Positions 1,981 through 24,437 of a stretch of DNA of 64,000 nt are shown here, in pieces (positions within the stretch are counted from its first letter, which is position 1; the number at the start of each line of letters is the position of its first letter). Both the position numbers and the translations under genes were made by a program. Below the pieces are notes generated by a model. It did no database searches, was not told the origin of the DNA, and saw nothing but the letters and a program-made list of their open reading frames with translations. The stretch covers positions 2,542,001 to 2,606,000 of the forward strand of contig NZ_JHZX01000001.1 of assembly GCF_000688335.1 (NCBI RefSeq), given 5' to 3'. Source of the DNA: Sediminibacter sp. Hel_I_10. Its GTDB lineage: Bacteria; Bacteroidota; Bacteroidia; Flavobacteriales; Flavobacteriaceae.

Positions 1981-2006
1981 TTAAATTTAAAATAGAATTT
2001 CTTTTT

Positions 2007-2372: not shown

Positions 2373-2379
2373 AACGTTA

Positions 2380-4136: not shown

Positions 4137-4170
4137 CTGTTGATATTTATTTGTTTTTAAATGCCGATTA

Positions 4171-4190
4171 CCTGCACGACGGCAGGCGGG
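4171..4190. repeat. GC-rich REP-like palindrome between traK and traM
   Basis: The sequence CCTGCACGACGGCAGGCGGG stands out from AT-rich surroundings and contains a small inverted repeat (CCTGC and GCAGG around ACGACG). In many Bacteroidetes genomes such GC-rich short palindromes lie between genes and create false ORF extensions with the residues PACRRAGN or similar; this one does so for traM. No second copy was noticed in the window. Confidence 0.5.
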
Positions 4191-4195
4191 TCGGC

Positions 4196-4810: not shown

Positions 4811-4821
4811 TTTGGGTTGAA

Positions 4822-5664
4822 TTAAGTATTAAATAATCTAAGGGTAAAAGATGTGGCACGCTTATACAGTTTGAATTTAAGGAATACTATAAAGCCTACC
4901 GAACCGAGCTGAACTACAGGTGCAAAAAAGCCTTCGCCAACGTCTGTTCCAAAAAGATTAACCCAGAAATTAGTATTGATTTCGGTATATAGCGCATTAA
5001 CGAATACGTTGACCAAAAAGAAAGCTGGTACCAACATATAGACCGCTGCATACAATTTGAAAAACGTGTAGGCGAGTGAACGGAATTTTTCAAAAACCGC
5101 GAGACTGATTACTAAAGGAAAAAATGCCTGCATAATCCCCAAAAGGAAAAAACGTTCAGCAAGAAATAGTGGATAGATGAACAAATCCAAAATCCACAGA
5201 ATGATACTTACGATAAAAGCAAATATCTTGAACCCGTATAGTGGTGTTACCAATGCTTCGTATAAGAGCGTCATTGCCGCTTTTGCTACCTCAATTATAC
5301 TGACATCTTCCTCAATAGGTATATCTTGCATCTGCAAAGGCAATAAGGCAGGTGCGGTGCCACGGTATTGACCTTCTATTGAAACCAAGATACTGTCAAA
5401 AAAACCTAATATTTGTGTTGAAAAAATGACTAGAATGACAATGGCGAAATTTTTCATCAAATCCCCAGGACTTAACCCCCAAGTGTAACCTTCCTTATCT
5501 GCAACACCTTCATTGTACTTTTTAAGGATATTTACCAGAAAAAACAGAACAGCAAGCGTTTTCATTCCCGCAATAGTGTACTGCGAGAAACTGCTGTTTT
5601 GTATCGTCTGGAAAACCGTGTCTATATATTCCAGTCCAATCCCTAAAATGATGGTTGCGGTCAT
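4822..5664 (-). CDS. traJ: conjugative transposon protein TraJ (VirB6-like polytopic membrane protein)
   Basis: This 280-residue protein has at least five hydrophobic segments, for example around residues 32-46 (GMKTLAVLFFLVNIL), 71-88, 143-175 and 195-225, and ends with a short basic tail. Size, topology and position directly after traI identify it as TraJ, the polytopic inner-membrane component of the Bacteroidetes transfer apparatus, in the role VirB6 has elsewhere. The gap to traI is only 2 bp. Bacteroides TraJ is usually somewhat longer (about 330), so this is a compact version. Confidence 0.85.
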   Translation of the reverse strand: MTATIILGIGLEYIDTVFQTIQNSSFSQYTIAGMKTLAVLFFLVNILKKYNEGVADKEGYTWGLSPGDLMKNFAIVILVIFSTQILGFFDSILVSIEGQYRGTAPALLPLQMQDIPIEEDVSIIEVAKAAMTLLYEALVTPLYGFKIFAFIVSIILWILDLFIYPLFLAERFFLLGIMQAFFPLVISLAVFEKFRSLAYTFFKLYAAVYMLVPAFFLVNVFVNALYTEINTNFWVNLFGTDVGEGFFAPVVQLGSVGFIVFLKFKLYKRATSFTLRLFNT

Positions 5665-5666
5665 CT

Positions 5667-6248
5667 CTAATATTCGGTTTCGCGGTTATTGATTTTATCT
5701 TGCATTTTTCTGAAGGAAATAATATCCTTGTATCGTTTCGTTTTGGCTTTGACGTTAGAAACCATTTCCTTTGATTCCAGTTCTTTTTGTTTAAGAATTT
5801 CAGCACGTTCGGCATCGGTCATTTTCAAATAGTCACTCGATAGAATTTCATCTATAAAATCCATTGTGTCCAAAGAGTTTTCTACGATGGCAGAAAACGA
5901 TTCTGATACCCTTGCCACTTCATCGGGTTTGATGTAAGGGCTGTCAAGAATGTCTCCTAAATCATCTTGCATCATATTGATTAAACGTTGATTGTTACGT
6001 CCAATCTCGCGAACGGCATCCAATTGTCTAACCACATCGTTGACCTTCTCAATATTTTCTTTGGCTTTTTTCATAAATTGAACTGTCTTGATAATATTTG
6101 AGGTCTGCTTTCCTGATTCTATCAACTGTTTTACCAAGCTGATAAAATTGGTATTGTCATAAGTTGGCATTCCCTGGGCGGTTGCATTGCCAGACATAAA
6201 TAAGGTCAAGGCTACGGTCATTACTAAAATTTTGATTTTTGTCTTCAT
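5667..6248 (-). CDS. traI: conjugative transposon protein TraI (DUF4141, VirB5-like)
   Basis: A 193-residue exported helical protein with a signal peptide ending near NATAQG. The rest is mostly amphipathic helices with coiled-coil potential (SLVKQLIESGKQTSNIIKTV, later LKQKELESKEMVSNVKAKTKRYKDIISF). Its place between the VirB4-type ATPase and traJ and its helical exported form match TraI/DUF4141, thought to be the VirB5-like minor pilus or channel component. It starts 4 bp after traG ends, so it is surely in the same operon. Confidence 0.82.
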   Translation of the reverse strand: MKTKIKILVMTVALTLFMSGNATAQGMPTYDNTNFISLVKQLIESGKQTSNIIKTVQFMKKAKENIEKVNDVVRQLDAVREIGRNNQRLINMMQDDLGDILDSPYIKPDEVARVSESFSAIVENSLDTMDFIDEILSSDYLKMTDAERAEILKQKELESKEMVSNVKAKTKRYKDIISFRKMQDKINNRETEY

Positions 6249-6252
6249 AATA

Positions 6253-8655: not shown

Positions 8656-8926
8656 AATCGAAGCCAGAGTTTCTTTTGTTACTAATGATTTGCGGAAATG
8701 CCTTTGCCATTTGGAAAAGCTGTGGATTGTGTGCTATCCGTGTCAAAGCCACATATAGGGAAGCATTGAATACCAACACACCTATTATTATCCCAAAGCT
8801 GAAAGAGAAGATGATGATGAGCAACGAAGCCAAAATAGAAACCATCATCAAGGCAAACAGGGAAATGGGCAACCCAAAAATGACCGCCCTTTTCCTGATG
8901 TTTTTATAGACCTCGAACCGTTTCAT
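8642..8926 (-). CDS. traF: conjugative transposon protein TraF (DUF4133, VirB3-like)
   Basis: A 94-residue protein beginning with a basic stretch (MKRFEVYKNIRKRAVIFGLP) followed by a long hydrophobic hairpin (about residues 20-60) and a short soluble tail. This matches TraF/DUF4133, the VirB3-like inner-membrane partner of the VirB4-type ATPase. It abuts traE without any gap and overlaps traG by 14 bp. Confidence 0.9.
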   Translation of the reverse strand: MKRFEVYKNIRKRAVIFGLPISLFALMMVSILASLLIIIFSFSFGIIIGVLVFNASLYVALTRIAHNPQLFQMAKAFPQIISNKRNSGFDYEQN

Positions 8927-9214
8927 TTATACAACGATTCCTATTAGGTAAGTAAAGATTCCGACTACTGCACCTGCAATCAATACAAATACTAAAACTC
9001 GGGTAATCCCCTTTTTTAAATCTGCATTTTCCCCAAAAAAATGTCCTGCGTTGAACAGGAAACCTACAAGGAAGATTACACCGAGTAGTATTGGAAAAAT
9101 AGTTCTGATGGTATCGCCTACATCGTTAACTGAATCTTCAATGCCACCAATTTGAGCAAAAAGCGAAGTGGATAAGAGCGAAAGAATGGATGCTAAATAG
9201 TGTGATTTTTTCAT
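8927..9214 (-). CDS. traE: conjugative transposon protein TraE (DUF4134, VirB2/pilin-like)
   Basis: A 95-residue small protein with a signal peptide (to about LFAQ) and two further hydrophobic helices (residues 41-58 and 72-93), the typical form of TraE/DUF4134. It is the first gene of the leftward transfer operon in this window. TraA-TraD counterparts are absent upstream; instead a divergent amidase gene follows. Confidence 0.9.
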   Translation of the reverse strand: MKKSHYLASILSLLSTSLFAQIGGIEDSVNDVGDTIRTIFPILLGVIFLVGFLFNAGHFFGENADLKKGITRVLVFVLIAGAVVGIFTYLIGIVV

Positions 9215-9379
9215 AACGGAACAGTTTAAATTTTTGGTTCATTTTCGTTATTGGAAATTTACATATATTTGAACATAAATAATTGAAAATCAAATAATTG
9301 TGAATAAAATATTATTTGATATTGTTTGAATTCCGTTGCTGTTATTTGACATCAAATTCTATGAATTTTTAAAGGAAAA
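9215..9379. promoter_or_regulatory. divergent control region of the tra operon and amidase gene, with 10-bp inverted repeat
   Basis: This 165-bp AT-rich stretch separates the leftward transfer operon from the rightward amidase gene. It contains a perfect inverted repeat, ATCAAATAAT at 9289-9298 and ATTATTTGAT at 9311-9320, spaced by 12 bp, plus related half-sites (TTTGACATCAAA at about 9344-9355 and TATTTGAA at about 9266). This is a credible operator controlling transfer gene expression. No convincing TANNTTTG promoter was found on either strand. The operator call is inference from symmetry and position. Confidence 0.5.
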
Positions 9380-10045
9380 ATGTTGATAACCCGAAAATTG
9401 AAAATGAAAAATCTGCTCAAAAACGTCAGTTTTGTGATTTTGGTTCTGAAAATGTGCTTCATTCTTGGACAGGAAACGAGTGCTCAAAAACGAATAATAA
9501 TTGACGTTGGACACGGTGGAAAAGATACAGGTGCAATTGGCATAAATAACATCCAAGAAAAGGATGTGGTTTTGTCCATTGCAAATGAGATTTTAAGGTT
9601 AAATAACGACTTAGAAAAACCACTCGATATTTATTTGACCAGGTACAAAGACACTTTAATATCATTATCGGACAGGACTAAACTGACCAAAGCCTTAAAT
9701 GCTGATTTGTTTGTGTCTTTGCATTGCAATCATTCCGATAATCCGGATGCAAGAGGTATTGAAGTTTACGCTTCAAGAAAACAAGAAAAATTCTCAAAAG
9801 CATCGGTTTTTATGGGCTATCAAATTGAAAGTGCACTTTGTGAAGCAATAGGCTATGATAGCAGAGGTGTGAAGTTTGCGAACTTTCAGGTGCTAAGGGA
9901 AACAGCAGATTATTGTACTGCCATATTAATAGAATTGGGCTTTTTATCCAATTGGGATGAAGAAAGCTATATCTCAGACAACCACAATATTGAGCGTATC
10001 GCACTATCGATATTATTATCCATTCAAAAATCAATAGAATTATGA
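9380..10045 (+). CDS. N-acetylmuramoyl-L-alanine amidase (Amidase_3), exported
   Basis: A 221-residue zinc amidase that cleaves the peptide from N-acetylmuramic acid in peptidoglycan. A signal peptide covers about residues 9-36. The Amidase_3 zinc and catalytic residues are visible: His in IIDVGHGGKDTGA, Glu in NIQEKDVV, His in VSLHCNHSD, and catalytic Glu in AILIELGFLSN. An AAAGGA sequence lies 3 bp before the ATG at 9380; the ATG at 9404 is an alternative. The place next to the tra operon suggests opening of the cell wall for the transfer channel, a role known for amidases and lysozymes in other conjugative systems. Confidence 0.9.
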   Translation: MLITRKLKMKNLLKNVSFVILVLKMCFILGQETSAQKRIIIDVGHGGKDTGAIGINNIQEKDVVLSIANEILRLNNDLEKPLDIYLTRYKDTLISLSDRTKLTKALNADLFVSLHCNHSDNPDARGIEVYASRKQEKFSKASVFMGYQIESALCEAIGYDSRGVKFANFQVLRETADYCTAILIELGFLSNWDEESYISDNHNIERIALSILLSIQKSIEL

Positions 10046-10140
10046 AAGATATTTTTTTAGAGTTAACGAAGAGCTTGAAGGACATTGTTTTACAATGTGT
10101 TTCAGAAGTTATTTTACTGTACAAATCCTTTAGAAGTTAG
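10042..10140 (+). CDS. possible 32-residue small protein coupled to the amidase gene
   Basis: An ATG overlaps the amidase stop codon (ATGA at 10042-10045) and opens a frame of 32 codons ending TAG at 10140. The predicted peptide starts MKDIFLELTKSLKDIVLQ and is an amphipathic helix. The stop/start overlap is a typical sign of translational coupling. No family is recognised, and a frame this short could be chance. Confidence 0.35.
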   Translation: MKDIFLELTKSLKDIVLQCVSEVILLYKSFRS

Positions 10141-10192
10141 ATTACCTAAGTTTATTATCTACACATTATAAAAAACAATTTATTCAATAGTG

Positions 10193-10214
10193 TATTTAAG
10201 TATTTGCTTAAATA
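10193..10214. promoter_or_regulatory. ArsR/SmtB-type operator
   Basis: A perfect 8-bp inverted repeat, TATTTAAG and CTTAAATA, is separated by TATTTG and lies 43 bp before the ArsR-family gene. AT-rich palindromes of this shape are typical sites of ArsR/SmtB/CadC repressors. It overlaps the -33 element of the promoter at 10203-10234, so binding should block transcription of the gene's own operon. Confidence 0.65.
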
Positions 10215-10234
10215 ATATAATAATGATATATTTG
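10203..10234 (+). promoter_or_regulatory. Bacteroidetes-type promoter of the mer-like operon
   Basis: TTTG at 10203-10206 and TATATTTG (TANNTTTG) at 10227-10234 are 20 bp apart, which matches the Bacteroidetes sigma-ABfr consensus. The ArsR-family start codon follows 22 bp later. The -33 element lies inside the ArsR-type palindrome. Confidence 0.65.
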
Positions 10235-10256
10235 TGGCCACTTTAAATCAAAAAAG

Positions 10257-10628
10257 ATGAGCTTGGAAATAACCTGTACACGGAACGAAGCAGACAAGAA
10301 GCAAATATCGAGATGTAAGGAAACCATAGAGAATTCTTCAGGTAGCTTAGAAGCAATAAGCAAAATTTTGTCTCTTGCGGGAAGCGAGGTACGACTGAAA
10401 ATTCTATTTCTATTGAACATAGAGAATGAACTGTGTCCTTGCGATATTGCTGACATTCTTGAAATGAGTGTTCCTGCCGTATCCCAACATATCCGTAAAA
10501 TGAAGGATGCGGGAATTATTACATCGAGACGTGAAGGGCAAACATTGTATTATTCGCTGGTAAAGAGTGAGGACAATGTTTTGAATGGAATTTTCAATTC
10601 AATTTCAGCAAGAAAGAAAACAGCTTAG
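10257..10628 (+). CDS. ArsR/SmtB family metal-responsive repressor
   Basis: A 123-residue winged-helix repressor. The HTH is DILEMSVPAVSQHIRKMKDAGIITSRREGQTLYYSL. The alpha-3 metal-site motif appears as ELCPCD (Cys at about 61 and 63), and two more Cys lie near the N-terminus (about 6 and 20), like the alpha-3N site of CadC-type sensors. It leads an operon with the MerT-MerP fusion gene 12 bp downstream and has a matching operator upstream. In Bacteroidetes mer operons an ArsR-type protein commonly replaces MerR. Mercury or another thiophilic metal is the likely inducer; the exact metal cannot be read from the sequence. Confidence 0.88.
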   Translation: MSLEITCTRNEADKKQISRCKETIENSSGSLEAISKILSLAGSEVRLKILFLLNIENELCPCDIADILEMSVPAVSQHIRKMKDAGIITSRREGQTLYYSLVKSEDNVLNGIFNSISARKKTA

Positions 10629-10640
10629 AAAGTTTACATT

Positions 10641-11243
10641 ATGGCACCGAATAAAACTTCAAATACCGCGGCCTATACCGGCATTTTTACCGCAGTTGCA
10701 GCATCAATATGTTGTATATCCCCTGTCTTGGCATTAATTGCTGGAACAAGCGGAATTGCATCTACATTCTCTTGGGTCGAGCCATTTAGACCCTATCTTA
10801 TCGGCTTGACCATTATTGTTTTGGTCTTTGCCTGGTACCAGAAACTACGACCGAAAACACAGGAAGAAATAGATTGCGCCTGTGAAGATGATGCGAAACC
10901 ATCGTTTTGGCAATCCAAACGGTTCTTATTGATAGTAACACTATTCGCCGCATTGATGCTGGCCTTCCCGTACTATTCCAATCTATTTTATGCACAGCCC
11001 GCCAAGGATATCGTCTATGTCTCTCAATCCAATATCAAAAAACAGACTTTTGAAGTCGCTGGAATGACCTGTGCAGGTTGTGAGGCACACGTAGAAAGCG
11101 AAGTCAATAAATTGGACGGAATTATTTCTATCAAAGCCAGCTACGAAAATGCTAATACCATAGTGGAATTTGACAAGACCAAAACCGATTTGCCCACAAT
11201 CCGAAAAGCTATAGAAAGCACGGGGTACAAAATAATAGAATAA
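10641..11243 (+). CDS. merT: mercuric transport protein, MerT-MerP fusion
   Basis: A 200-residue inner-membrane protein. Residues about 10-35 form the first transmembrane helix with the vicinal Cys pair of MerT (SICCISP); a second helix follows (YLIGLTIIVLVFAWY), then a loop with DCACED, a third helix near residues 93-110, and from about residue 133 an HMA domain with GMTCAGCEAHVE. MerT and MerP are usually separate; Bacteroidetes carry this fused form. It should bring Hg(II) into the cell for MerA, yet no merA lies in the window, so import without reduction would be odd. Confidence 0.88.
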   Translation: MAPNKTSNTAAYTGIFTAVAASICCISPVLALIAGTSGIASTFSWVEPFRPYLIGLTIIVLVFAWYQKLRPKTQEEIDCACEDDAKPSFWQSKRFLLIVTLFAALMLAFPYYSNLFYAQPAKDIVYVSQSNIKKQTFEVAGMTCAGCEAHVESEVNKLDGIISIKASYENANTIVEFDKTKTDLPTIRKAIESTGYKIIE

Positions 11244-11449
11244 TGAAGATTCAATTAAAATCTACGATTACCTGTCCAGAATGCGGCCACAAAAAGGCTG
11301 AAGAAATGCCAACCACCGCCTGTCAATTCTTTTATGAATGTGAGAATTGCAAAACGGTTCTGAAACCAAAAGAAGGGGATTGTTGTGTATTCTGTTCTTA
11401 TGGTACTGTGGCTTGTCCGCCGATTCAAGAAAATAAAAATTGTTGTTAA
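11243..11449 (+). CDS. GDCCVxC-domain small metal-binding protein
   Basis: A 68-residue cytoplasmic protein with nine or more Cys: a zinc-ribbon-like CPECGH near the start, CENC in the middle, then GDCCVFCSYGTVACPP, the signature of the GDCCVxC family, and a CC at the C-terminus. Members follow merTP in Bacteroidetes mercury operons. Its start overlaps the stop of merTP (shared TAATG), so it is translationally coupled. It probably binds the imported metal or hands it on. The function is not established. Confidence 0.8.
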   Translation: MKIQLKSTITCPECGHKKAEEMPTTACQFFYECENCKTVLKPKEGDCCVFCSYGTVACPPIQENKNCC

Positions 11450-11466
11450 AAAGCCATACCTTAAAT

Positions 11467-12129
11467 TCACTTCCGTTTATCCCCAGCTTTAGTATCAAAA
11501 GCAATCAAATTAAAAAGTTCTCGCATTCGGCTACGCACACGATTACCATAGCGTTCTTCCAGTTCTTCAGCATTGAGATTGGTTGTGGCGTGCGTCTTGA
11601 TTTTGTGTTTGGTTTGTAAGTAAAGCTCGTATCGGGATAAGAGCACTTCGCCCATTACGTTCAAATCCTTTCCGTAGAATCTACCAGATGGTTCCACACC
11701 TAAATCATCAAAACAGTAAAATTTGGTATTACCATACTCTTCAACCGTTTTAAACCCAAGATGGTTGAAACTGAAGGTTACATTCCGGCAGGGAATCATT
11801 TCGTAAGGTCTTTGTAGTGGAACCAAATGGCGCAACAATTTCATCAAACTGGTTTTGCCGCAGCCAACGGGTCCGGAAAGTAGAATGCCTTTGTCAATGT
11901 CAATACCATAAGTCTCACAGTTGTCTTTATCCTTGATGAAGTAGGAACAGAGCTTCAGCAAAATATCCTTGTCTTCATCATATATCCTAAACTTTTCGCC
12001 AAACAAAAGTTTGCCTTTGGCATTTAGGTAAATCAAGATTTTTGAAAAATCATAGATCACACTTTTACCATCAAATTTTCCGAGCGAATATTCCACGCCA
12101 CCTTCGGTTATTTTAGAGGGGTTGTCCAT
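11467..12129 (-). CDS. DnaC-like P-loop ATPase of the ICE replication/maintenance block
   Basis: A 220-residue AAA+ type ATPase. Walker A is LSGPVGCGKTSLMKLL near residues 82-97 and Walker B-like FYCFDDLGVEP near residue 138, with an arginine-rich C-terminal part (YGNRVRSRMRELFN) typical of DnaC/IstB-like helicase loaders. It overlaps the upstream winged-helix gene by 17 bp. The pair resembles the helicase-loader plus initiator pairs of plasmids and ICEs, so a role in replication of the excised circle is likely. It ends 17 bp from the convergent GDCCVxC gene. Confidence 0.75.
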   Translation of the reverse strand: MDNPSKITEGGVEYSLGKFDGKSVIYDFSKILIYLNAKGKLLFGEKFRIYDEDKDILLKLCSYFIKDKDNCETYGIDIDKGILLSGPVGCGKTSLMKLLRHLVPLQRPYEMIPCRNVTFSFNHLGFKTVEEYGNTKFYCFDDLGVEPSGRFYGKDLNVMGEVLLSRYELYLQTKHKIKTHATTNLNAEELEERYGNRVRSRMRELFNLIAFDTKAGDKRK

Positions 12130-12865
12130 AATCTTTGTTTTTAGTGGTTCGCAAGTTGTCCTTGATTTGGGACGCTTGTTTTTTGTTTGGTTTGTTTTCC
12201 TCGTCGAATATTTCGGTTCTGTCCATCCAGTTGATGGCTACGGCTCGCCAATCTCTGATTTCCTTGCCATCGCCAGTTTGCCAATTTCTGGTCTGGTAAT
12301 GCTCATAGAATTTTTTAGCTTCATCAGCATCAAAACCTTTTTCTTCAAAAAAAATAAAAACGGCCTGCCAGCCCTTTGGTTGTTTTATATAGTTTTCTTG
12401 TTTGATATTGTTTGTATTAGATACCAATGCTTGTCCATCTATGGGACGGTGTTGGTTCACAACCTGTCCATTTTTGGGATGGTGGTGTCCCTCAAGCGGT
12501 ACACCTCTGGGATGGTACTGTTCCGCAAGTTGTTCTAATATGGGATTGTACTGTCCCACAACCGGTTCATCACTTGTCCCAATAATGGCCATCTTTATTT
12601 TGCTGCCTTTGTAGGGATTGTTGGAAGGGAAATAGGTTAAGTATTGCCAAGAATCTAACTCGACGATGCATCTGTGATATGTAGACTTAGAACCTATTTT
12701 AGCACATCGCATCAAATCGCGACGGTTTACATAAAATTCATCCATAAAGCGGCAACTGTTCCATTCTTGGAATAGCGCCATATACAAACTGATATGGGAT
12801 GGGTTAAGGCGGTCATCAAAATAGAACTTTTCAAAAGCCGCATTAAGTAGCTTTATATAGTTCAT
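12113..12865 (-). CDS. winged-helix, initiator-like protein with internal 11-residue repeats
   Basis: A 250-residue protein. Residues 1-95 look like a winged-helix DNA-binding domain (SRRDLMRC-type helix with AKIGSKSTYHRCIVELDSW). Residues about 98-145 are a degenerate 11-residue repeat array (consensus near xGQVVxQYxPx). The C-terminal part (about 165-225, GWQAVFIFFEEKGFDADEAKKFYEHY, then DWRAVAINWM) resembles the DnaD-like/DnaB_2 C-terminal domain of replication proteins. With the coupled helicase-loader-like ATPase downstream, it is a candidate ICE replication initiator. Exact family membership is uncertain. Confidence 0.65.
   Translation of the reverse strand: MNYIKLLNAAFEKFYFDDRLNPSHISLYMALFQEWNSCRFMDEFYVNRRDLMRCAKIGSKSTYHRCIVELDSWQYLTYFPSNNPYKGSKIKMAIIGTSDEPVVGQYNPILEQLAEQYHPRGVPLEGHHHPKNGQVVNQHRPIDGQALVSNTNNIKQENYIKQPKGWQAVFIFFEEKGFDADEAKKFYEHYQTRNWQTGDGKEIRDWRAVAINWMDRTEIFDEENKPNKKQASQIKDNLRTTKNKDYGQPL
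12443..12574. repeat. four 33-bp degenerate tandem repeats within the initiator-like gene
   Basis: Units begin with GGGACGGT, GGGATGGT, GGGATGGT and GGGATTGT at 12443, 12476, 12509 and 12542, exactly 33 bp apart, with partly conserved interiors (CACAACCTGTCC, CCTCAAGCGGT, CGCAAGTTGTTC, CCACAACCGGTTC). A partial fifth unit precedes them (GCTTGTCCATCTAT at about 12429-12442). Since 33 is a multiple of 3, the array encodes 11-residue repeats on the minus strand. Confidence 0.8.
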
Positions 12866-12868
12866 CTT

Positions 12869-13153
12869 TTAAGAATTTTGCTTGTGCTGCACTCGATTTG
12901 AGTTCATTACACCTTGAATTTCCTCTGCATCATAGTAGATAATGCCCCCAACTTTTGTGTATGGCAACGTTCCATTGATGCGAAGATTCTGTAATGTACC
13001 TGGACTGACTTGAAGCAAGTCCATTACCTCGGAAGATTTTAAATATTTCTTGAGTTTTCCAGTTGCTTGTTTAGATAGAAGATTCTTGATGTCATCGAGC
13101 AATTCCATTTTAAATTCTCGAAGGTCGTCGGTGGTAATAATATTTGCTGGCAT
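12869..13153 (-). CDS. excisionase-like helix-turn-helix protein (HTH_17)
   Basis: A 94-residue DNA-binding protein. After a helical N-terminus, the HTH_17 core reads SSEVMDLLQVSPGTLQNLRINGTLPYTKVGGIIYYDAEEI, the pattern of MerR-type excisionase proteins found next to ICE maintenance genes in Bacteroidetes. It is followed closely by the initiator-like and DnaC-like genes, so all three are probably one operon. Its upstream region shares a roughly 30-bp site with the integrase gene's upstream region, supporting a role in excision or its control. Confidence 0.82.
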   Translation of the reverse strand: MPANIITTDDLREFKMELLDDIKNLLSKQATGKLKKYLKSSEVMDLLQVSPGTLQNLRINGTLPYTKVGGIIYYDAEEIQGVMNSNRVQHKQNS

Positions 13154-13175
13154 AATAGAACGGTTTTAAAGAAAG

Positions 13176-13212
13176 GGACTATCGTATCGATTTCAACTAA
13201 TTTGATAGTCCC
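13176..13212. promoter_or_regulatory. inverted repeat upstream of excisionase-like gene
   Basis: GGGACTATC at 13176-13184 and GATAGTCCC at 13204-13212 form a perfect 9-bp inverted repeat with a 19-bp spacer, 23 bp before the start of the HTH gene. It may be an operator or form a 5'-UTR hairpin. Directly beside it lies the site shared with the integrase upstream region. Confidence 0.5.
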
Positions 13213-13216
13213 TGAC

Positions 13217-13246
13217 CTGATTTGACTTTCGTTCTACAAATTTGGG
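13217..13246. promoter_or_regulatory. palindromic site shared with the integrase upstream region (copy 1)
   Basis: CCTGATTTGACTTTCGT followed by a short spacer and CAAATTTGG forms an imperfect palindrome. The same arrangement, CCTGATTTGGCTTTCGT then CAAAACAGG, is found in inverted orientation at 63791-63819. The 18-bp block ACCTGATTTG(A/G)CTTTCGT (13215-13232 here) has a single mismatch. A common binding protein, either the excisionase-like protein or the integrase, is the simplest explanation. Confidence 0.55.
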
Positions 13247-13446
13247 ATGGTTTATTGGATTTTAATCCCAAGTTGTACCCAAGTAGGGTGTTTTTATTTA
13301 CTCATTTTCAATGGTTTAAATTGGTTTGATTTAGAGGTGTCACTTAAAATCATCTTTGCCAAATGATAATAGATAAAATTAATTTTATTTTTTCCCAAGT
13401 AAGACCCAACTTGGGAAGAAATTTAACATTTTTAAAAATGAAAATA
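13247..13446. repeat. CCCAAGT iteron-like cluster in the non-coding region beside the maintenance genes
   Basis: Two related 22-bp blocks at 13267-13288 and 13394-13415 agree at 17 positions; both are built from CCCAAGT plus a second CCCAA. The second block also forms a hairpin: TTCCCAAGT (13392-13400) with ACTTGGGAA (13409-13417). CCCAAGTTG (13267-13275) is also complementary to CAACTTGGG (13407-13415). A TTGGGAT/ATCCCAA pair lies at 13242-13271. No gene is seen in this stretch. It could be a replication origin, a recombination accessory site or an RteC target. Confidence 0.45.
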
Positions 13447-14298
13447 TCAACCGTCCGTTTCTTCCATTCGCCTTAAAAGTGTTGCTTTTAGTCTATCAAT
13501 AAACTTGGTTTGGTCGATTTTCCGTTCTCTTATTTCGAGAAAAGTTCTATAAACGTTACCAAGATTAAGTTCAAAAATATCTTCACAAGCTGATGCCATT
13601 TCTTTAATACCAGCTGTACCACTTTTTATTGCGCCAGATGCCTGTAATGCATAAATTAACTCAATCAGGTCTGTTTTTGAAGCAGTCCAACCAAGTCGCT
13701 CACCGTTTGATAGAGTATTCAGCTTATTCGGTATGCCGTATGACAAATCCCTTAAATTACTTAACTCTTCAACGTAATGGCTTATTAATAGGTCATAGGC
13801 CATAATTTTGGCAATTGCATTATCGTGGCTTGTGGAAAATTCAGCATCTGTATAAAAATGAGAAGTGTTTGATACCAAGCTAATTTTATCATTTCCTCGC
13901 AGAAAATAGAATTCATCCAGAAGTTCAGAATCCTCTCTATAATATTTAATGAAATCTATATTTCGTCGATTACTTTCTTGTAGCCTATTTATTTCTGAAT
14001 CAATAAATTCCTGTTGAGATTTTATTGTTCCCGCAGGTCTATTTATCAAGAAATTGTAGAGTTTGGCATAAAATTTCAGTCTGCTATAGATGTGGGGTTT
14101 ATGCTTTTTAAAGAATATTATTTCATTCTGTTTATCTACGAATTCATTTTCCCTTACACAGATGCGTAATTTCTGCAAGTATTGTCTTGAAATAGAAATA
14201 CCTTGTTCAACATTGTTGAAATCGTTTAGATTAGATTCCTCAACTACTTTTATTTCCTCTTTGTAATTGTCTAGTATTTTATGAATTAACTTATGCAA
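13447..14298 (-). CDS. rteC: RteC family protein (ICE excision regulator)
   Basis: A 283-residue cytoplasmic protein with the RteC C-terminal signature: RLGWTASKTDLIELIYALQA, then GTAGIKEMASACEDIFELNLGN, then YRTFLEIRERKIDQTKFIDRLK. In CTnDOT, RteC activates the excision genes by binding their promoter region. Here it lies just upstream of the repeat-rich region and excisionase-like gene, all on the minus strand, so the same logic is likely. No RteA/RteB two-component genes or tetQ are present in the window, so control of this RteC must differ. Length is normal for the family. Confidence 0.9.
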   Translation of the reverse strand: MHKLIHKILDNYKEEIKVVEESNLNDFNNVEQGISISRQYLQKLRICVRENEFVDKQNEIIFFKKHKPHIYSRLKFYAKLYNFLINRPAGTIKSQQEFIDSEINRLQESNRRNIDFIKYYREDSELLDEFYFLRGNDKISLVSNTSHFYTDAEFSTSHDNAIAKIMAYDLLISHYVEELSNLRDLSYGIPNKLNTLSNGERLGWTASKTDLIELIYALQASGAIKSGTAGIKEMASACEDIFELNLGNVYRTFLEIRERKIDQTKFIDRLKATLLRRMEETDG

Positions 14299-14362
14299 AA
14301 TATTTTTGGGGCTTTAGATTTGGGTTAATTATTAATAAGTAATGTTTGTATGTTATATCTTT

Positions 14363-17998: not shown

Positions 17999-18643
17999 TT
18001 ATTTATAGTTTATTGTAAAATAGCTGTTATCTGCTTCTGAAAATTTCTGAAAAGTCAATAAACCTTTTTCATTTAATTTTTCGATAACGGTATAATTGAG
18101 TTGCTTAATGCGAATTCCCCAGGCATAGGCTTTAATATTAATTTTTGATTTTATAGTGTTTTTCCCATCCTCTAATTTTCGGTCATAAATTTTTATGATG
18201 CTTTTGGAACCAAAAAAGTTTAACAAGCCCGAGTCAAAACTCATTTCCAATTTAATATCTTTCAAGTTTTGTAAATCGTAGAGCTTTTTAAAATTTTCAG
18301 AAATGGTATTAATTTCGGTTTCTTTTGATTTTGGCTTGGAAAACGGAAAAGCCATTATCATTACATTGGCGTCATCTGGCTCACAACGGTAGGTAGTAGT
18401 GTATTTATCGGTTGATTGTTTGTTTTTGTCAAACAATTCTGTAACTACCTTTATTTCATAATATCCATTTTCCTTTATTGTTTCTCCAGCTTCAAAAGTT
18501 TGTTTATTGAGAAAATCACCTTCTTTATCAAAGTTTTCCCGAATAACAACTCTGCCTGAAATCTGCCCAATGAGCATTTCAGTTTGTCCAGTCATTGTGA
18601 TGCTTAATAAAGTGATTAGTACTATAAAGCCTTGTTTTCTCAT
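17999..18643 (-). CDS. exported protein of unknown function
   Basis: A 214-residue protein with an N-terminal signal peptide (about residues 1-22, LITLLSITMTGQTEM). The mature part is rich in Lys, Glu and aromatic residues with alternating strands (KIYDRKLEDGKNTIKSKINIKAYAWGIRIKQLNY). No family is recognised. The start overlaps the end of the PRPP synthetase homologue by 4 bp, so it is in the same operon. Confidence 0.65.
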   Translation of the reverse strand: MRKQGFIVLITLLSITMTGQTEMLIGQISGRVVIRENFDKEGDFLNKQTFEAGETIKENGYYEIKVVTELFDKNKQSTDKYTTTYRCEPDDANVMIMAFPFSKPKSKETEINTISENFKKLYDLQNLKDIKLEMSFDSGLLNFFGSKSIIKIYDRKLEDGKNTIKSKINIKAYAWGIRIKQLNYTVIEKLNEKGLLTFQKFSEADNSYFTINYK

Positions 18644-19533
18644 ATATGGTGCATTAATTTTTTTACCTCTTTTGCCATAATATCACTTAAATCTATTCCA
18701 TTTGAAGAGTGTGGGATGGTATTACAAGTCACTATTTTTTCTACTCCGGAATCCAATAAATCTTGATAGGCGTTTCCTGAAAAAACGGCGTGAATGCCTA
18801 CACAAATAGGTGGTTTCATTCCTGCTTTTTTAAGATGTTGTACGGTTTCAATCATTGTTCGGGCTGTGGAAATAATATCATCTACCAAAATGGGTGTAGC
18901 ATCTTTATATATATCCACATCGGGAACAGAGACTTCTACATCACGGTCACCGTGACGCACCTTTTGTAATACCGTAAATGGTGCTCCTGCATTTTTGGCG
19001 ACTTCTGATACCCATTGTTCACTTTCAGAATCAGGTCCGATAAGTACCGGGTTTTCGATATTTTCTTTAATCCATTCTGAAATTGCGTCGGCAGCGTGAA
19101 TCACTTTATTTGGAATTTGATACACTTCCCCTAACGAACTAATTCTGTGCAAGTGAGGGTCAACCGTGGTAATGCTATCGGCAAAACCAGAAATCAATTT
19201 TCCGAAGAAACCAGAAGTCACTCCTTCACCTTCATTAAATACTTTGTCCTGCCGCATATACGCCAAATAGGGTGCTACCAAACAGGTACACATAGCGCCT
19301 AATGATTTGGCTGTGTGACTTAGAAAATAAAGCGGCAACAGTTTTTCATCTGGTTCGTGTAAGGTGCATACCAGTACCACACATTTATCTTTAACATCAG
19401 ATAATATACGTGTGTACGATTCCCCGTCAGGGAATTTACGCAAAGTGGCTTTGCCCACTTCAGCATCCATTTTTGTAGCCATAAGTTCTGTGAGTTCTTC
19501 ATTTCCGGGAAGACTGAATAATATTGTTTTCAT
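18640..19533 (-). CDS. ribose-phosphate diphosphokinase (PRPP synthetase) homologue
   Basis: A 297-residue member of the PRPP synthetase family. Seen motifs are the N-terminal RKFPDGESYTRI, PYLAYMRQDKVF, VDPHLHRI and the PRPP loop PILVDDIISTART (near residue 215-227). The loop keeps DD but has ISTART in place of the usual housekeeping MIDTAGT, and the protein is slightly shorter, so this is a divergent paralogue of the type that travels with AMP/thymidine phosphorylase genes. It follows that gene by 6 bp. The expected reaction is ribose-5-P + ATP to PRPP + AMP; a link to the phosphorylase product ribose-1,5-bisphosphate is inference. Confidence 0.85.
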   Translation of the reverse strand: MKTILFSLPGNEELTELMATKMDAEVGKATLRKFPDGESYTRILSDVKDKCVVLVCTLHEPDEKLLPLYFLSHTAKSLGAMCTCLVAPYLAYMRQDKVFNEGEGVTSGFFGKLISGFADSITTVDPHLHRISSLGEVYQIPNKVIHAADAISEWIKENIENPVLIGPDSESEQWVSEVAKNAGAPFTVLQKVRHGDRDVEVSVPDVDIYKDATPILVDDIISTARTMIETVQHLKKAGMKPPICVGIHAVFSGNAYQDLLDSGVEKIVTCNTIPHSSNGIDLSDIMAKEVKKLMHHI

Positions 19534-19539
19534 AGTTTT

Positions 19540-21042
19540 TTAAATTATAGTTAGGATGTCGTTATGGTTGTTTTTATATTCCAGAGCATAGTTGAGTTCG
19601 CCTTTGGATTCAGCATATATGGTATATAATAATTGGTCTATTTCAATTTTTTCATTTAAATGGACATTCAAAAGAATCCCTGCCGATTTAGACTGCGGTG
19701 CGCCGGAAAGCTTGGCGAGTTTTGCTATCTTTCTATTATCTATGCGCTTTAAAACCCCAGAGTTTTCTGCTCTAATTTCGGTTTTATAGGGTGCTAAAAC
19801 AGGTTTTGAAAAGCGACCTTGCGCATTACAAATAGCAAGGAATTTTTTATAAGCCTGACCAGATTTGAGAATTTCACGTGCGGTTTCCAGTCCCTTTCCT
19901 TTTTCTACTTTTCCAGAAAGTTCTAATAGTTCAGTAGCTAAAAGCAATGCTCTTTCTGTTAAGTCTTTAGGTGCATCTTCCTCATTTTTCAAAACTTTTA
20001 ATATATCTATGGCTTCTAATGTTGGACCGATACCCCTTCCAACAGGCTGCGTGCCATCCGTAACTACAACTTTTACATTCAAGTCAACAGATGTCCCAAC
20101 GGTTTCCATATGATTTTTTAGTTTTTGAGCCATTTCGGTACTGCGAACCTTGGCGGTTTCACCCACGGGAATATCAATGACCACGTGAGTGGAACCAGCT
20201 GCTGCTTTTTTAGAGAGTACCGAAGCAATGAGCTGCCCTTCACTATCAATATCCAAGGCTTTTTCAATTTTGATGAGCACATCATCGGCAGGACTTAACT
20301 GCGCCGTGCCTCCCCAAACAAAACATCCGCCTTCTTTTTCTACTACAGTCTTTATTTCCTCGGAAGAGAGCGTAACATTGGTCAATACTTCCATTGTATC
20401 TGCTGTGCCTGCTGGCGAAGTGATTGCCCGTGAGGATGTTTTTGGCATAGTAAGACCATACGCGGCAACAATGGCAACGACCAATGGTGTTGTTCTATTG
20501 CCAGGCAATCCACCAATGCAATGCTTGTCGACCACGATATCCTTGTTCCAGTTCAGTTGCTTTCCGGAAGCAATCATTGCTTTAGTAAGGTCACTTATTT
20601 CATCAATATCCATTCGGTCGCCAGCACAGGCAGTAATAAATGCCGAAAGGTGGATGTTGGAATAATCGCCTTCCACGATATCGGTTATGATGTTGTTATA
20701 GGCCTTATAATCCAGTTTTTTGTTATAGATTTTTGCCCTAACGTGACTTAAAGATTCAATAGGTTCTAAATGTGAAACATACAAAGTGTCATTGTCTGAA
20801 ACATTTAGCTTTTTTGCAGCTGCATCTGATAGTCCAATTTCGTTGGGCAACAGCATATCTGAATTTATAATGTTGAGGCTTGCTACAATTGAATGGGTTG
20901 CCTTTGAAATCCTTATTCTTGTAAGTGCTTCAAAACCTTCGGAAATACAGACGTGGCAATCTTCACGCATATACACCACATTTTCGTTCTGGGTATAAAT
21001 ACCCAGATGTTTGTATTTTAGAATGTTTGAGTGTTGTTCCAT
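19540..21042 (-). CDS. AMP/thymidine phosphorylase family enzyme (DeoA, archaeal type)
   Basis: A 500-residue enzyme with the N-terminal extension domain of archaeal AMP phosphorylases (about residues 1-90), then the nucleoside phosphorylase fold: helical KHCIGGLPGNRTTPLV (phosphate-binding region near residue 172), SSRAITSPAGTADTMEVL (about 215) and the C-terminal alpha/beta domain. Bacterial thymidine phosphorylases are about 440 residues and lack the extension, so AMP phosphorylase (AMP + Pi to adenine + ribose-1,5-bisphosphate) is a strong option. It pairs with the PRPP synthetase homologue. No RuBisCO or ribose-1,5-bisphosphate isomerase is seen, so the pathway must run elsewhere. Confidence 0.85.
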   Translation of the reverse strand: MEQHSNILKYKHLGIYTQNENVVYMREDCHVCISEGFEALTRIRISKATHSIVASLNIINSDMLLPNEIGLSDAAAKKLNVSDNDTLYVSHLEPIESLSHVRAKIYNKKLDYKAYNNIITDIVEGDYSNIHLSAFITACAGDRMDIDEISDLTKAMIASGKQLNWNKDIVVDKHCIGGLPGNRTTPLVVAIVAAYGLTMPKTSSRAITSPAGTADTMEVLTNVTLSSEEIKTVVEKEGGCFVWGGTAQLSPADDVLIKIEKALDIDSEGQLIASVLSKKAAAGSTHVVIDIPVGETAKVRSTEMAQKLKNHMETVGTSVDLNVKVVVTDGTQPVGRGIGPTLEAIDILKVLKNEEDAPKDLTERALLLATELLELSGKVEKGKGLETAREILKSGQAYKKFLAICNAQGRFSKPVLAPYKTEIRAENSGVLKRIDNRKIAKLAKLSGAPQSKSAGILLNVHLNEKIEIDQLLYTIYAESKGELNYALEYKNNHNDILTII

Positions 21043-21071: not shown

Positions 21072-22448
21072 CTATTCTATTTCTTCAATATTATAGAGTT
21101 GTGGGATTTCCGCATCCCATCCATAAGTTTCCTTTATTCCTTTTTGAAGTGCTTCCGCACCTTCTTTTTCTCCGTGCACAATAAAAATTCGCGCTGGCTT
21201 ATTTTTTATTTTGCTCATCCAATCAATTAATTCAGCGTGGTCTGCGTGTGCAGAGAGGCCTTGAATTTCGGCTACTTCCATTTGAAGGGATACCGTTTTC
21301 CCATACACTTTTAATTCTTTTTGGCCTTCCAATAGCTTTCTTCCACGAGTGCCTTCAGCTTGATAGCCTACAAAAAGCAGGGTGTTATTTGGGTTTTGTG
21401 CTTGAGTTTCAAGGTAGTTGAGCATCCTGCCACCGGTAAGCATTCCACTTCCAGCAATTACGATTTTTGGTTTGTTGTCTGTTCGCAATTCCATAGTTTC
21501 CCGATAACTGCTTACGACTGTAAAATGTGAACACATTTCATCACATTCATTGTCTTCCAATCTGTGCCAATCTCTTGTACGATGAAACAATTCCAATACA
21601 CTAGCTCCCATTGGGCTGTCCATTATCATTTGTACTTTTGGGATTTTCTTTTCCTTCAGTAACTTCCAAAAAATAAGCATCATCAGTTGGGCACGTTCTA
21701 CTGAAAAGCTTGGGACAAATAGGCTTCCGCCTCTATTATTAGTGTCGTTGACCAATTTTTCAATCTGCGGAAGTGCTTCCGCTTCGTCAGGATGAAATCT
21801 TCCTCCATAAGTGGATTCAATGAAAAGCACATCTGCTTTTTTGGGTTTCAGAGGTGGATAAAGCAATAAATCATTGGTTCTTCCAATATCTCCTGAAAAA
21901 ACAAAACGTTTTCCGTGTACATCCAACTCGATAAAAGTTGCACCAAGGATATGTCCGTTATACTGAAACCGCGCCTTGATACCATCAAATAATGATATCC
22001 ATTGGGATTGTGGAACGTTCTTAAAATGTGGAAAGGTTTTTTCAGCATCTTTTAAATCGTACAATGGTTCAGCAGGACTATGTTTGGAATAACCTTCTTT
22101 GTTGGCACGTTCGGCCTCCTGTTCTTGAATTTTTGCACTATCATTCAAAATGATTTTAGCAATATCTAACGTGGGATTGGTGCCATAAATAGGTCCTTTG
22201 AACCCTTGCTTGACTAATCGCGGTAGATAGCCAGTATGGTCTAAATGGCCGTGAGTAAGCAATACCATATCAATTTCTGAAACTTCCACGGGTGGATATT
22301 CCCAGTTTTTGAGTCGTAATTCTTTTAACCCTTGAAAAAGTCCGCAGTCTATCAGTATTTTTTTATCTCCTGTATCCACTAAATATTTTGAGCCAGTTAC
22401 TGTACCTGCCGCTCCTAAAAAGTGGATGTTTATTTTATTGTTTTTCAT
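21072..22448 (-). CDS. beta-CASP metallo-beta-lactamase fold RNase-like hydrolase
   Basis: A 458-residue enzyme. The metal-binding motif is LTHGHLDHTGYLPRL (near residue 64), further ligand regions appear around GHILGATFIELD and FSGDIGR, and the C-terminal half carries beta-CASP and RMMBL motifs (SGMLTGGRMLNYLE, then LSAHADHAELIDW and FIVHGEKEGAEALQ). Proteins of this form are RNA-cleaving or RNA 3'-processing enzymes related to CPSF-type nucleases. Here it is embedded between the AMP phosphorylase gene and small stress genes. The RNA substrate is unknown. Confidence 0.88.
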   Translation of the reverse strand: MKNNKINIHFLGAAGTVTGSKYLVDTGDKKILIDCGLFQGLKELRLKNWEYPPVEVSEIDMVLLTHGHLDHTGYLPRLVKQGFKGPIYGTNPTLDIAKIILNDSAKIQEQEAERANKEGYSKHSPAEPLYDLKDAEKTFPHFKNVPQSQWISLFDGIKARFQYNGHILGATFIELDVHGKRFVFSGDIGRTNDLLLYPPLKPKKADVLFIESTYGGRFHPDEAEALPQIEKLVNDTNNRGGSLFVPSFSVERAQLMMLIFWKLLKEKKIPKVQMIMDSPMGASVLELFHRTRDWHRLEDNECDEMCSHFTVVSSYRETMELRTDNKPKIVIAGSGMLTGGRMLNYLETQAQNPNNTLLFVGYQAEGTRGRKLLEGQKELKVYGKTVSLQMEVAEIQGLSAHADHAELIDWMSKIKNKPARIFIVHGEKEGAEALQKGIKETYGWDAEIPQLYNIEEIE

Positions 22449-22463: not shown

Positions 22464-22718
22464 TTAGTTTCCACCACAGCAGGAAGGCGTGTTTCCTTTA
22501 TCTTGGTTTGATTTGCTCAATTCCGCTATTTCATTATATAGATTGCGGGAATCCTCTTTGATAAGAAGCGCCAATTTCTTTACGGATTTAGGTTCAAAGT
22601 TTACCATCCCCAATAATATTTCAAGGGCTTCTTCAAGTAGTTTTGAATCATCTTCCAATGCTTGGTAAAATGGCTCTAAATCTATGCTGTTCCGTTTTTG
22701 CAGTTCATCTGTTTTCAT
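22464..22718 (-). CDS. small helical protein with C-terminal Cys-Cys motif
   Basis: An 84-residue soluble protein that is almost wholly helical and acidic, ending PSCCGGN. The Cys-Cys at the very end could bind a metal. No family is recognised. It lies 15 bp upstream of the beta-CASP gene on the same strand and is likely co-transcribed with it. Confidence 0.65.
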   Translation of the reverse strand: MKTDELQKRNSIDLEPFYQALEDDSKLLEEALEILLGMVNFEPKSVKKLALLIKEDSRNLYNEIAELSKSNQDKGNTPSCCGGN

Positions 22719-22761: not shown

Positions 22762-23604
22762 TCAAGTGCTTTTACATAGTGCTTCTGAATCTTCTAAAAT
22801 CTTTTTGTGTCTTTTTTTATCAATTCCTATCTGTTCCAATAACGCAGGTTTTTCGTGAAGCTCTTTGCAGAGCACGATGCCTGTATCCAATAACTTTGTT
22901 TTTTCGGCTTTGGTCAGGGTAGTCAATGCCGTTAAAGGGTGCAGTCCCAACTTGTCTATTCTGTCTTTTAAACCGTTTCCCATCGGGTAATCCCAACTTG
23001 TTAATAATAATCCCACGCATTTACCATATTGCACAGCATCGGTGGTAAATCGTGTATTGGTATATACACCTCCCTTATGAAGTTTATCCTCGTGACCTTT
23101 TTGGCGTTCCCATTGTTTTTCCACATCCAAAAATCTTGAATGGATGTATAAGGGGATTTTCACATTACAAACCCTACCTTGGTCACTGTGGTATTTGCAT
23201 TCAATCATATAATGATTATTGTCTTTTTGCGCTATCACATCTATTTCGTGCTGAACGCAATTACCCTGTACAATCACACCAACCTGTGTTGAAAATCCTT
23301 CGTGTGCCAATAGTTTGCCTACTAACTTTTCAAAAGGAAAACCAGAAGGACCTAATTCCATCAATGCTTTTTTGAGCTTATACTTTGAGGCACTTACACG
23401 TGATTTGCCTTTAAGTATTTTAAATGCCATCTGGTAGATTTTTTTAGTGGTAATGCCTTCATATATTTTGTTTTCAACTTGGTCAACAATTTGCTGAATC
23501 AATTCTTCACTAGCTTGTGCACGTCTTAAGGAATTGATAAGTTTATCCACATCAAAAGGAACCACGTCGCCAGAATATTTCACTATGTTGATTGAATCTT
23601 TCAT
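22762..23604 (-). CDS. ATP-cone domain fused to a Mrr-like PD-(D/E)XK nuclease
   Basis: A 280-residue protein. Residues about 5-90 form an ATP-cone (VKYSGDVVPFDVDKLINSLRRAQASEELIQQIV, then ISKYKLKKAL-like end), the allosteric nucleotide sensor known from ribonucleotide reductase and NrdR. Residues about 92-190 form a restriction-endonuclease-like domain with FEKLVGKLLAHEGF and the catalytic core EIDVIAQ...HYMIECKYH. This combination suggests a nuclease controlled by ATP/dATP level. It overlaps the universal stress protein gene by 4 bp. Substrate and biological role are unknown. Confidence 0.82.
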   Translation of the reverse strand: MKDSINIVKYSGDVVPFDVDKLINSLRRAQASEELIQQIVDQVENKIYEGITTKKIYQMAFKILKGKSRVSASKYKLKKALMELGPSGFPFEKLVGKLLAHEGFSTQVGVIVQGNCVQHEIDVIAQKDNNHYMIECKYHSDQGRVCNVKIPLYIHSRFLDVEKQWERQKGHEDKLHKGGVYTNTRFTTDAVQYGKCVGLLLTSWDYPMGNGLKDRIDKLGLHPLTALTTLTKAEKTKLLDTGIVLCKELHEKPALLEQIGIDKKRHKKILEDSEALCKST

Positions 23605-24437
23605 TTTTTAATATGTATGGTCATCACAGGTAGTTCTGAATGATTAGTTACGCCTTCTGCAATGCTTTTTGAAAATAAACTCAAAAATCCTGTCTTTCCG
23701 TGGGTACTCATTGCAATTAAATCTGCGGGCTGATGTTTTAGAAATGTATTGATACCTTCTTCTACTGACGATTCGTTGTGAACGTTCATAGAAAAGTTTT
23801 TTAAGGTGGGAAACTTTTCAAGAAATAGCTTGACAGGGTTTAATCCAGCGTTGATACTATTAAAGTCTGTTTCTGTATTAATGCGTAACAAATGAATTTT
23901 AGCATCACATTTTTCAGCTATGGAAAGCACAGCTTGAAACGGATGACTCACATCTTCTTCAAAAGAAGAGACAAATAGAATATTCTTAAAAGGAAACGTT
24001 ACTTCATCCTCTTTTACCACAATAATTGGCGCATTTGCCTTTCTTACAATTTTTTCAACATTACTGCCCGTTATCTCCCTTACACGGCCTTTGGTACCGC
24101 TACTTCCTGTAATGATGAAATCGTGGTGGAAATGACCAGAATGTTCCAAAATATCTTTTTGTCCTGAATCGAATTGTAGAAAAGTTCGGCATTTAAGACC
24201 TTCGTGTTCTGCTATTTTTTCGAGTTCACGTAAATTAGCCTTTGCAGTACCTATCTGCTTTAAGGTTTCTGGATAACGCTTTTCTTTGAGTTTATCTAAT
24301 TTTACCCAATCTACAGGTGTGGTCATCTGATGCAAAAAGTGTATTTCTGCATTGTATGTTTTTGCCATTTTAATCCCTAGATGTGCAGCTTTAGTGCAGT
24401 TTTCAGAGAAATCGGTGGGTACGAGTATATTTTTCAT
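23601..24437 (-). CDS. universal stress protein with two tandem Usp domains
   Basis: A 278-residue protein made of two UspA domains (about 1-145 and 146-278). The first ends with the ATP-type loop ITGSSGTKGRVREITGSNVEKIV; the second ends AMSTHGKTGFLSLFSKSIAEGVTNHSELPVMTI. Both keep the G-x2-G-x9-G(S/T)-like pattern of ATP-binding Usps. It is translationally coupled to the ATP-cone nuclease (4-bp overlap), which strengthens the idea of an energy-state response. Confidence 0.9.
   Translation of the reverse strand: MKNILVPTDFSENCTKAAHLGIKMAKTYNAEIHFLHQMTTPVDWVKLDKLKEKRYPETLKQIGTAKANLRELEKIAEHEGLKCRTFLQFDSGQKDILEHSGHFHHDFIITGSSGTKGRVREITGSNVEKIVRKANAPIIVVKEDEVTFPFKNILFVSSFEEDVSHPFQAVLSIAEKCDAKIHLLRINTETDFNSINAGLNPVKLFLEKFPTLKNFSMNVHNESSVEEGINTFLKHQPADLIAMSTHGKTGFLSLFSKSIAEGVTNHSELPVMTIHIKK

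Follow-up and report, generated by a model that had tools for sequence, protein, structure and literature searches.

The gene at positions 22762 to 23604 of the window, by which we mean the whole 64,000-nucleotide stretch of Sediminibacter sp. Hel_I_10 DNA that was analysed, encodes a 280-aa protein that combines an ATP-cone, a Mrr-like PD-(D/E)XK nuclease and an AF1548-like C-terminal helical domain. Its recurring neighbour encodes a beta-CASP metallo-hydrolase, and we tentatively favour a nucleotide-gated nuclease that degrades RNA together with this RNase-like partner, to feed salvage when the cell is short of energy or under metal stress. The gene, its segments and its neighbours are as follows.

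23601..24437 (-), Usp, with a 4-base overlap between its stop and the nuclease start (Pfam, locus comparison)
22762..23604 (-), ATP-cone / PD-(D/E)XK (Mrr-like) / AF1548-like C-terminal protein, 280 aa (Pfam, 1y88 sequence match, AlphaFold and fold comparison, alignment)
23359..23604 (-), ATP-cone region, residues 1-82, with K9, F17, K21 and T53 kept (Pfam, model, fold comparison, alignment)
23332..23355 (-), hinge GPxGFPF, residues 84-91, running into catalytic E92 (conservation)
22942..23352 (-), PD-(D/E)XK nuclease, about residues 85-221, with E92, H119, E120, D122, E135, C136 and K137 (Pfam, fold, alignment)
22765..22941 (-), AF1548-like helical C-terminal domain, about residues 222-280 (weak PF22357 match, 1y88 aligned over 85-280)
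22464..22718 (-), 84-aa protein with an SCCGG C-terminal tail, between the nuclease and RNase genes (no Pfam family)
21072..22448 (-), beta-CASP metallo-hydrolase, probable RNase and recurring partner (Pfam, NCBIfam, adjacency, motifs)
19540..21042 (-), thymidine/AMP phosphorylase family protein (NCBIfam)
18640..19533 (-), ribose-phosphate diphosphokinase (PRPP synthetase), NF005537 (397.7 bits, cut-off 322)

The open reading frame starts with ATG and lies on the minus strand. The original prediction of an ATP-cone joined to a Mrr-like nuclease was borne out by Pfam, with ATP-cone PF03477 matching residues 5-68 at 38.2 bits (cut-off 25.8) and Mrr_cat PF04471 matching residues 88-142 at 29.1 bits (cut-off 21). 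AF1548-like_C (PF22357) matched residues 223-275 at 17.6 bits, below its cut-off of 23.9, and a homologue (L036) scored 30.4, above it; searching the window's genome with PF22357 gave no match, as did 14 controls, which makes that search uninformative. NCBIfam held no model for the protein at E 0.01, and at the same threshold Pfam detected no Mrr_N domain and no CARF family at the N-terminus, where the ATP-cone was matched instead. A phmmer search against the PDB returned one convincing solved relative, AF1548 (1y88; E 1.2e-34, residues 93-274). Structural modelling, proposed earlier as a check, gave an AlphaFold model (28 aligned homologues) with pLDDT 95.4 and pTM 0.90 in which the cone and nuclease folds were both recovered, plus the AF1548-like match. 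The sole Foldseek match at E <=0.001 was 1y88 (6.9e-16), and NrdR, RNR cones and several PD-(D/E)XK enzymes appeared at E of about 0.001-0.01. In structural alignments, residues 85-280 of the model matched 1y88 with Z 22.9 (183 residues, 36% identity) and residues 1-81 matched NrdR 9fxk_A with Z 10.3, with RNR cones near Z 10. The ATP-cone and the nuclease are thereby confirmed, and the structural alignment adds a third, AF1548-like domain. The AF1548-like domain and the beta-CASP partner gene were both absent from the original prediction.

Residue conservation was assessed in a set of 122 proteins, comprising the window protein and 121 homologues: 40 from a phylum sample, picked for diversity, 79 from a contig scan and two from plasmids. 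The contig scan supplied the 80 closest loci among the matches listed, one of which (L135) was not recovered by the ORF caller; close relatives are over-represented in the set, and at least one genome is counted twice in it (as L032 and L091). The EIDV (120-123) and ECK (135-137) motifs named in the original prediction are present, and E92, H119, E120, D122, E135, C136 and K137, which include the E, D and ExK active-site residues, are invariant in all 122 proteins. The protein is very probably an active nuclease.

The phylum sample of 395 genomes included 73 that match the nuclease protein at E 0.001, and the fusion is therefore neither a frame accident nor an assembly accident. With one partial match excluded, there are 77 near full-length copies in 72 genomes; one of the copies has an internal stop (G389) and another is cut short (G385). 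The window's genome has a single copy, and its only other ATP-cone belongs to a frame of 836 aa taken to encode a ribonucleotide reductase. In plasmid records searched by tblastn at E 1e-5, the nuclease was found in two only, from Pontibacter and Criblamydia. A second sample, reached via a MAG titled Eubacteriaceae (L093), gave a full match in that MAG alone among 249 genomes, with one internal stop, and four further genomes matched weakly over the nuclease part only. The L093 protein is 87% identical to the window protein and its locus is flavobacterial in type, as is that of L109, and the L093 contig may be flavobacterial contamination. L109, from a MAG titled Verrucomicrobia, was rejected as an independent phylum because its sample has the contig coordinates of the first phylum sample (for example G548:C35 and G151:C35), which places this MAG with the phylum of the window. 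A viral origin was likewise rejected: no IMG/VR relative was found with a single protein or an alignment as query, and none in phage records.

The beta-CASP gene is the recurring partner of the nuclease gene. Among the 395 genomes, 43 of the 44 beta-CASP copies with at least 50% identity lie directly downstream of the nuclease on the same strand, the lone exception (G367) having the two genes on different contigs, and the nuclease is present in every one of the 42 genomes that have such a copy. The gaps between alignment ends are 2-46 bases in 41 pairs and about 315 bases in the window and in G198, owing to the 84-aa gene. Within the best 60 beta-CASP rows, 16 are at 47% identity or less and none of these is adjacent to the nuclease. 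Viewed from the nuclease, the gene is directly downstream in 43 of 121 loci and within two genes in 73; dereplication at 60% leaves 36 loci, with 12 and 14, respectively, and it is within two genes in 15 of the 40 phylum-sample loci. The pair is retained in 16 backgrounds that are mutually less than 60% identical and have differing flanks. Distances of the nuclease and beta-CASP proteins correlate with r 0.93 over 71 pairs and r 0.66 over 21 dereplicated pairs, the latter exceeding all 2000 permutations of the dereplicated set (maximum 0.34), a correlation that can be explained through shared descent alone. A close partner is absent from 30 of the 72 nuclease genomes, indicating that the nuclease can work without the beta-CASP enzyme.

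The beta-CASP enzyme itself appears intact. Its motif residues are kept in 72 sequences, the exceptions being a single gap where HxHxDH has its first H and one D to G change; at the last position of SAHADH, 39 sequences have H and 33 have Q. From its sequence it is probably an RNase. It scored 393.8 bits against the type VII CRISPR Cas14 model NF045584 (cut-off 800) and 300.5 bits against the aCPSF1 equivalog TIGR03675 (cut-off 580.2), and since both scores are below their cut-offs an RNA substrate for the partner is a prediction. The 84-aa protein encoded between the two enzymes in the window has a homologue in 30 loci, and the order nuclease, 84-aa protein, RNase holds in 28 of 121; its model is poor (pLDDT 67.2), and with its conserved Cys-Cys-Gly-Gly tail it could be a metal- or redox-sensing regulator.

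The identity of the partner bears on whether the pair would act on DNA instead, with the cone reading dATP versus ATP as in RNR and NrdR, DNA being nicked or degraded on a shift of the dNTP pool, in repair or in the removal of damaged or foreign DNA, and the beta-CASP enzyme serving as a DNA exonuclease. The model lends this some weight, since the fold of its PD-(D/E)XK part is closest, AF1548 aside, to DNA enzymes, among them AspBHI (Z 11.6), EndoMS (Z 10.9) and MspJI (Z 10.3), and dATP is sensed by known ATP-cones according to excerpts of PMC9110341. However, the best NCBIfam models for the partner are aCPSF1 and Cas14, in contrast to 50.7 bits for the ligase-associated exonuclease model, and no recurrent DNA repair gene was noticed nearby in tables that label only genes resembling those of the window. 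We consider a dNTP-sensing DNA nuclease unlikely, and lean slightly towards RNA as the main substrate.

We then consider whether the cone can still serve as a sensor. K9 is kept in 121 and K21 in 118 of the 122 proteins; position 17 holds F (115 proteins) or Y (7), position 53 holds T (114) or S (8), and Y57 and Y75 are found in 119 and 120, respectively. K9, F17 and K21 are spaced like K50, F58 and K62 of Streptomyces coelicolor NrdR. In that protein, as described in excerpts of PMC9110341, the inner nucleotide makes contacts with K50, R51 and E56 and the outer one with K62, a guanosine would collide with F58, and the ATP and dATP/ATP states differ in the position of the final two helices of the cone. 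The equivalent of R51 is not retained here, position 10 being Y in the window protein and mostly A, Y, S or H across the 122, and the equivalent of E56 (position 15) is V in the window protein and E in 38 of 122. Escherichia coli NrdR likewise has S, not R, in the R51 column of the same alignment. The original reading of a sensor domain attached to a nuclease thus stands as far as the invariant active site and the mostly kept phosphate lysines K9 and K21 are concerned, but is weakened at the R51 and E56 equivalents, and because these are not retained the ligand and the direction of the response cannot be assumed. Judged from these residues, the nucleotide site is non-canonical yet plausible, and the cone probably binds nucleotide.

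Conservation also singles out the connection between the two domains. In 64 sequences dereplicated at 70%, mean conservation was 0.88 for the hinge (84-92), the highest of six segments compared, with 0.62 for the nuclease core and 0.54 for the cone body (5-68). In the AlphaFold model, the hinge bridges the last cone helix (77-82) and the helix that begins at residue 90 and holds E92. An allosteric signal would, on this model, have to pass via residues 84-92, with the accompanying helix movement suggested by analogy with NrdR.

This cone is also found on a second enzyme. At three loci (L036:10751-12286, L069:10802-12331 and L070:10817-12352), an ATP-cone is joined to a glucoamylase-family domain (PF10091; Pfam checked for L036) in a gene two places downstream of the nuclease, and by coordinates G286 (C20 near 1256) has the same arrangement. 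The glucoamylase cone is 49-57% identical to the cone of the nuclease nearby; against the RNR cone from the window's genome, its identity is 31-37% over 49 residues. This sequence comparison suggests that the cone was copied between the nuclease and glucoamylase genes. In eight genomes of another family, chosen for the glucoamylase cone together with relatives, ATP-cones were found in frames of 808-819 aa (RNR-sized) and in this nuclease, and four of the eight have a further cone in a frame of 517-527 aa. A bolder proposal, which we regard as rather unlikely, is that ATP-cones serve, beyond dNTP synthesis, as a transferable nucleotide switch on depolymerases, gating RNA breakdown in Bacteroidota and, in one genus, moved onto a glucoamylase so that RNA and storage polymers would be mobilised together when adenine pools report starvation or metal stress.

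These data also bear on the possibility that the cone is silent, a retained dimerisation or folding module on a nuclease that is constitutive or otherwise controlled. The missing R51 and E56 equivalents and the lower conservation of the cone body relative to the nuclease core are what such a module would lead one to see, but K9, F17, K21, T53 and Y57 are each kept in at least 93% of the 122 proteins, beyond the needs of a pure scaffold, and the cone recurs on the nearby glucoamylase. A silent cone is improbable in our judgement.

The remaining neighbours were compared as well. The original prediction held that the nuclease is translationally coupled to a Usp gene; the overlap is real, the Usp stop and the nuclease start sharing the bases ATGA, but the arrangement is clade-specific: 30 of 121 loci have Usp as the gene immediately upstream, compared with 2 of the 40 from the phylum sample. 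The beta-CASP gene, in contrast, recurs over divergent backgrounds. Downstream, the phosphorylase is above the cut-offs of NF003338 and TIGR02645 (thymidine phosphorylase; putative thymidine phosphorylase) and below that of the AMP phosphorylase equivalog TIGR03327 (490.5 versus 535). Missing this cut-off means that NMPs are not assured as its substrate, and it lowered our estimate of a salvage role, which had stood a little higher. A phosphorylase-family gene is downstream of the nuclease in 33 of 121 loci, 29 of which have the PRPP synthetase directly next, and 29 of the 33 also have a beta-CASP gene within two genes. Such loci are often close to genes for metal transport. In the 395 genomes this gene is rare, being found in four: three times in the nuclease locus and once elsewhere. 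The copy elsewhere (G002:C1:2309045-2309944) is broken, with one internal stop and 86% identity over residues 8-307, and lies away from the nuclease. Both the Pontibacter and the Criblamydia plasmid keep the order nuclease, MBL hydrolase, thymidine phosphorylase family protein and PRPP synthetase, and the Criblamydia plasmid adds phosphoketolase, glucan phosphorylase and acetate kinase.

In loci without the partner, the direct neighbours of 13 loci were compared and 10 proteins were scanned with Pfam, and no common partner emerged. At one of the nuclease copies without a beta-CASP gene, a LOG-type (PF03641) gene lies directly behind the nuclease (L052:8878-9630), and at two others LOG-type relatives lie two genes (L064, 11496-12260) and three genes (L065, 7516-8280) upstream. 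On an Aureibacter plasmid, a TIGR00730 gene follows a more distant beta-CASP gene (43.7%). LOG-type proteins can split NMPs, and these neighbours, at few loci, are suggestive of NMP cleavage. Directly beyond another copy without beta-CASP, an RtcB RNA ligase gene lies on the opposite strand (L043:10471-11637, minus strand).

On a wider scale, the window also holds genes for an ArsR-type regulator, a copper-subfamily P-type ATPase, an RND pump, Usp proteins and phosphofructokinase, and from the reading of open reading frames what appear to be aldolase and GAPDH-like genes. TraG, RteC and a tyrosine integrase are encoded at 2000-14300 and 62570-63784, and the window looks like a metal-resistance island riding on a conjugative element. 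A P-type ATPase gene is within eight genes of the nuclease in 60 of 121 loci.

This setting argues against an anti-phage effector, in which infection would shift nucleotide pools, the cone would sense the shift and the nuclease would destroy nucleic acid: the nuclease domain does resemble those of Can2, Card1 and Cdn1 (Z about 9.6-10), whose CARF nucleases have a similar layout, PADLOC gave matches to CARF_PDDEXK, ZorD and PDC-S02 on the nuclease domain, and a gene for a PycTM-like membrane protein directly follows in 4 of 121 loci (L064, L137, L139, L142), but the PADLOC matches are weak (best 1e-6) and confined to the nuclease part and the contexts are mostly metabolic or metal-related, and we regard this role as very improbable. 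For the same weakness and confinement of the PADLOC matches, membership in a defence family was rejected. The missing phage and IMG/VR relatives have no bearing either way on a defence role. The PycTM-like genes (L064:8983-9552, L137:5295-5867, L139:10835-11410 and L142:10829-11404) each lie directly behind a second copy of the ATP-cone nuclease and form a small subgroup.

We therefore return to the nucleotide-gated nuclease as the preferred reading. In the mechanism we propose, the N-terminal ATP-cone would bind an adenine nucleotide (ATP and/or dATP), and binding would move the final two helices of the cone, leading on to the hinge GPxGFPFE with the first active-site acid E92. Binding would probably also alter oligomerisation, and the PD-(D/E)XK site would open or close as a result. 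From the union of a sensor domain with a nuclease, as read from the sequence, regulation of cleavage by ATP/dATP would follow naturally, and a response to low energy charge as such would extend beyond the known ATP/dATP response of ATP-cones. On a nucleotide signal of stress or starvation, the nuclease and the beta-CASP enzyme might jointly degrade RNA to 5'-phosphorylated products. PD-(D/E)XK and beta-CASP enzymes leave 5'-phosphates, and such products would fit a putative NMP-splitting step encoded behind the two genes. Where the phosphorylase and PRPP synthetase genes follow, nucleotides or nucleosides could then be split and the ribose recovered. This explanation is weakened by the absence of the partner from 30 of 72 nuclease genomes, the rarity of the phosphorylase (4 of 395) and the missing R51 and E56 equivalents, and a role in salvage or energy metabolism is possible but doubtful.

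If the cone does gate the nuclease, an allosteric module would be extended to nucleic acid turnover, with cleavage answering directly to the nucleotide state. AF1548-like proteins, whose structure was released in 2004 with function unknown, would gain a testable job, and the tight pairing with one beta-CASP subclass would offer a two-gene system for reconstitution. Public records already list the protein as 'ATP cone domain-containing protein'. In excerpts of PMC9110341, PMC5794259, PMC11226230, PMC12051234 and PMC4390871, ATP-cones are discussed for ribonucleotide reductases and the repressor NrdR; the PMC12051234 excerpt mentions nucleases solely as zinc-finger nucleases, and in that of PMC4390871 a restriction endonuclease appears in a reference title only. 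No published description of an ATP-cone/nuclease fusion was found in these and other partial texts, and the founding ATP-cone paper (Aravind 2000) might mention one. A literature search for AF1548 returned, at the level of titles, almost only chance hits to accession numbers.

Among known systems, the gene order has its nearest parallels on Pseudomonadota plasmids, where those of Legionella fallonii and Acidovorax carry genes for an MBL hydrolase, a thymidine phosphorylase family protein and PRPP synthetase in unchanged order, close to genes for metal transport, and a Ciceribacter plasmid has these genes in another order; unlike in the window, no ATP-cone nuclease is annotated in the three regions viewed. 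The type IV restriction enzyme Mrr shares the Mrr_cat domain, whereas our protein has an ATP-cone and lacks an Mrr_N match at E 0.01. NrdR and RNR ATP-cones share the cone fold (Z about 10-11) and, by the excerpts of PMC9110341, the spacing of K, F and K, but here the cone is fused to a nuclease rather than to a Zn-ribbon or an RNR subunit, and two inner-site contact residues are not retained. AF1548 of Archaeoglobus fulgidus has the nuclease and C-terminal domain in common with our protein, with the EIDV and ECK motifs common to both in the alignment, but its solved chain (199 residues) aligns to residues 85-280 only and is without an ATP-cone. The CARF-PD-(D/E)XK effectors Can2, Card1 and Cdn1 also combine a sensor with a PD-(D/E)XK nuclease, and Can2 is matched by profile as well (E 0.02). 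The combination of such a nuclease with a ligand sensor is thus already known, and the novelty is that the sensor here is an ATP-cone, not CARF.
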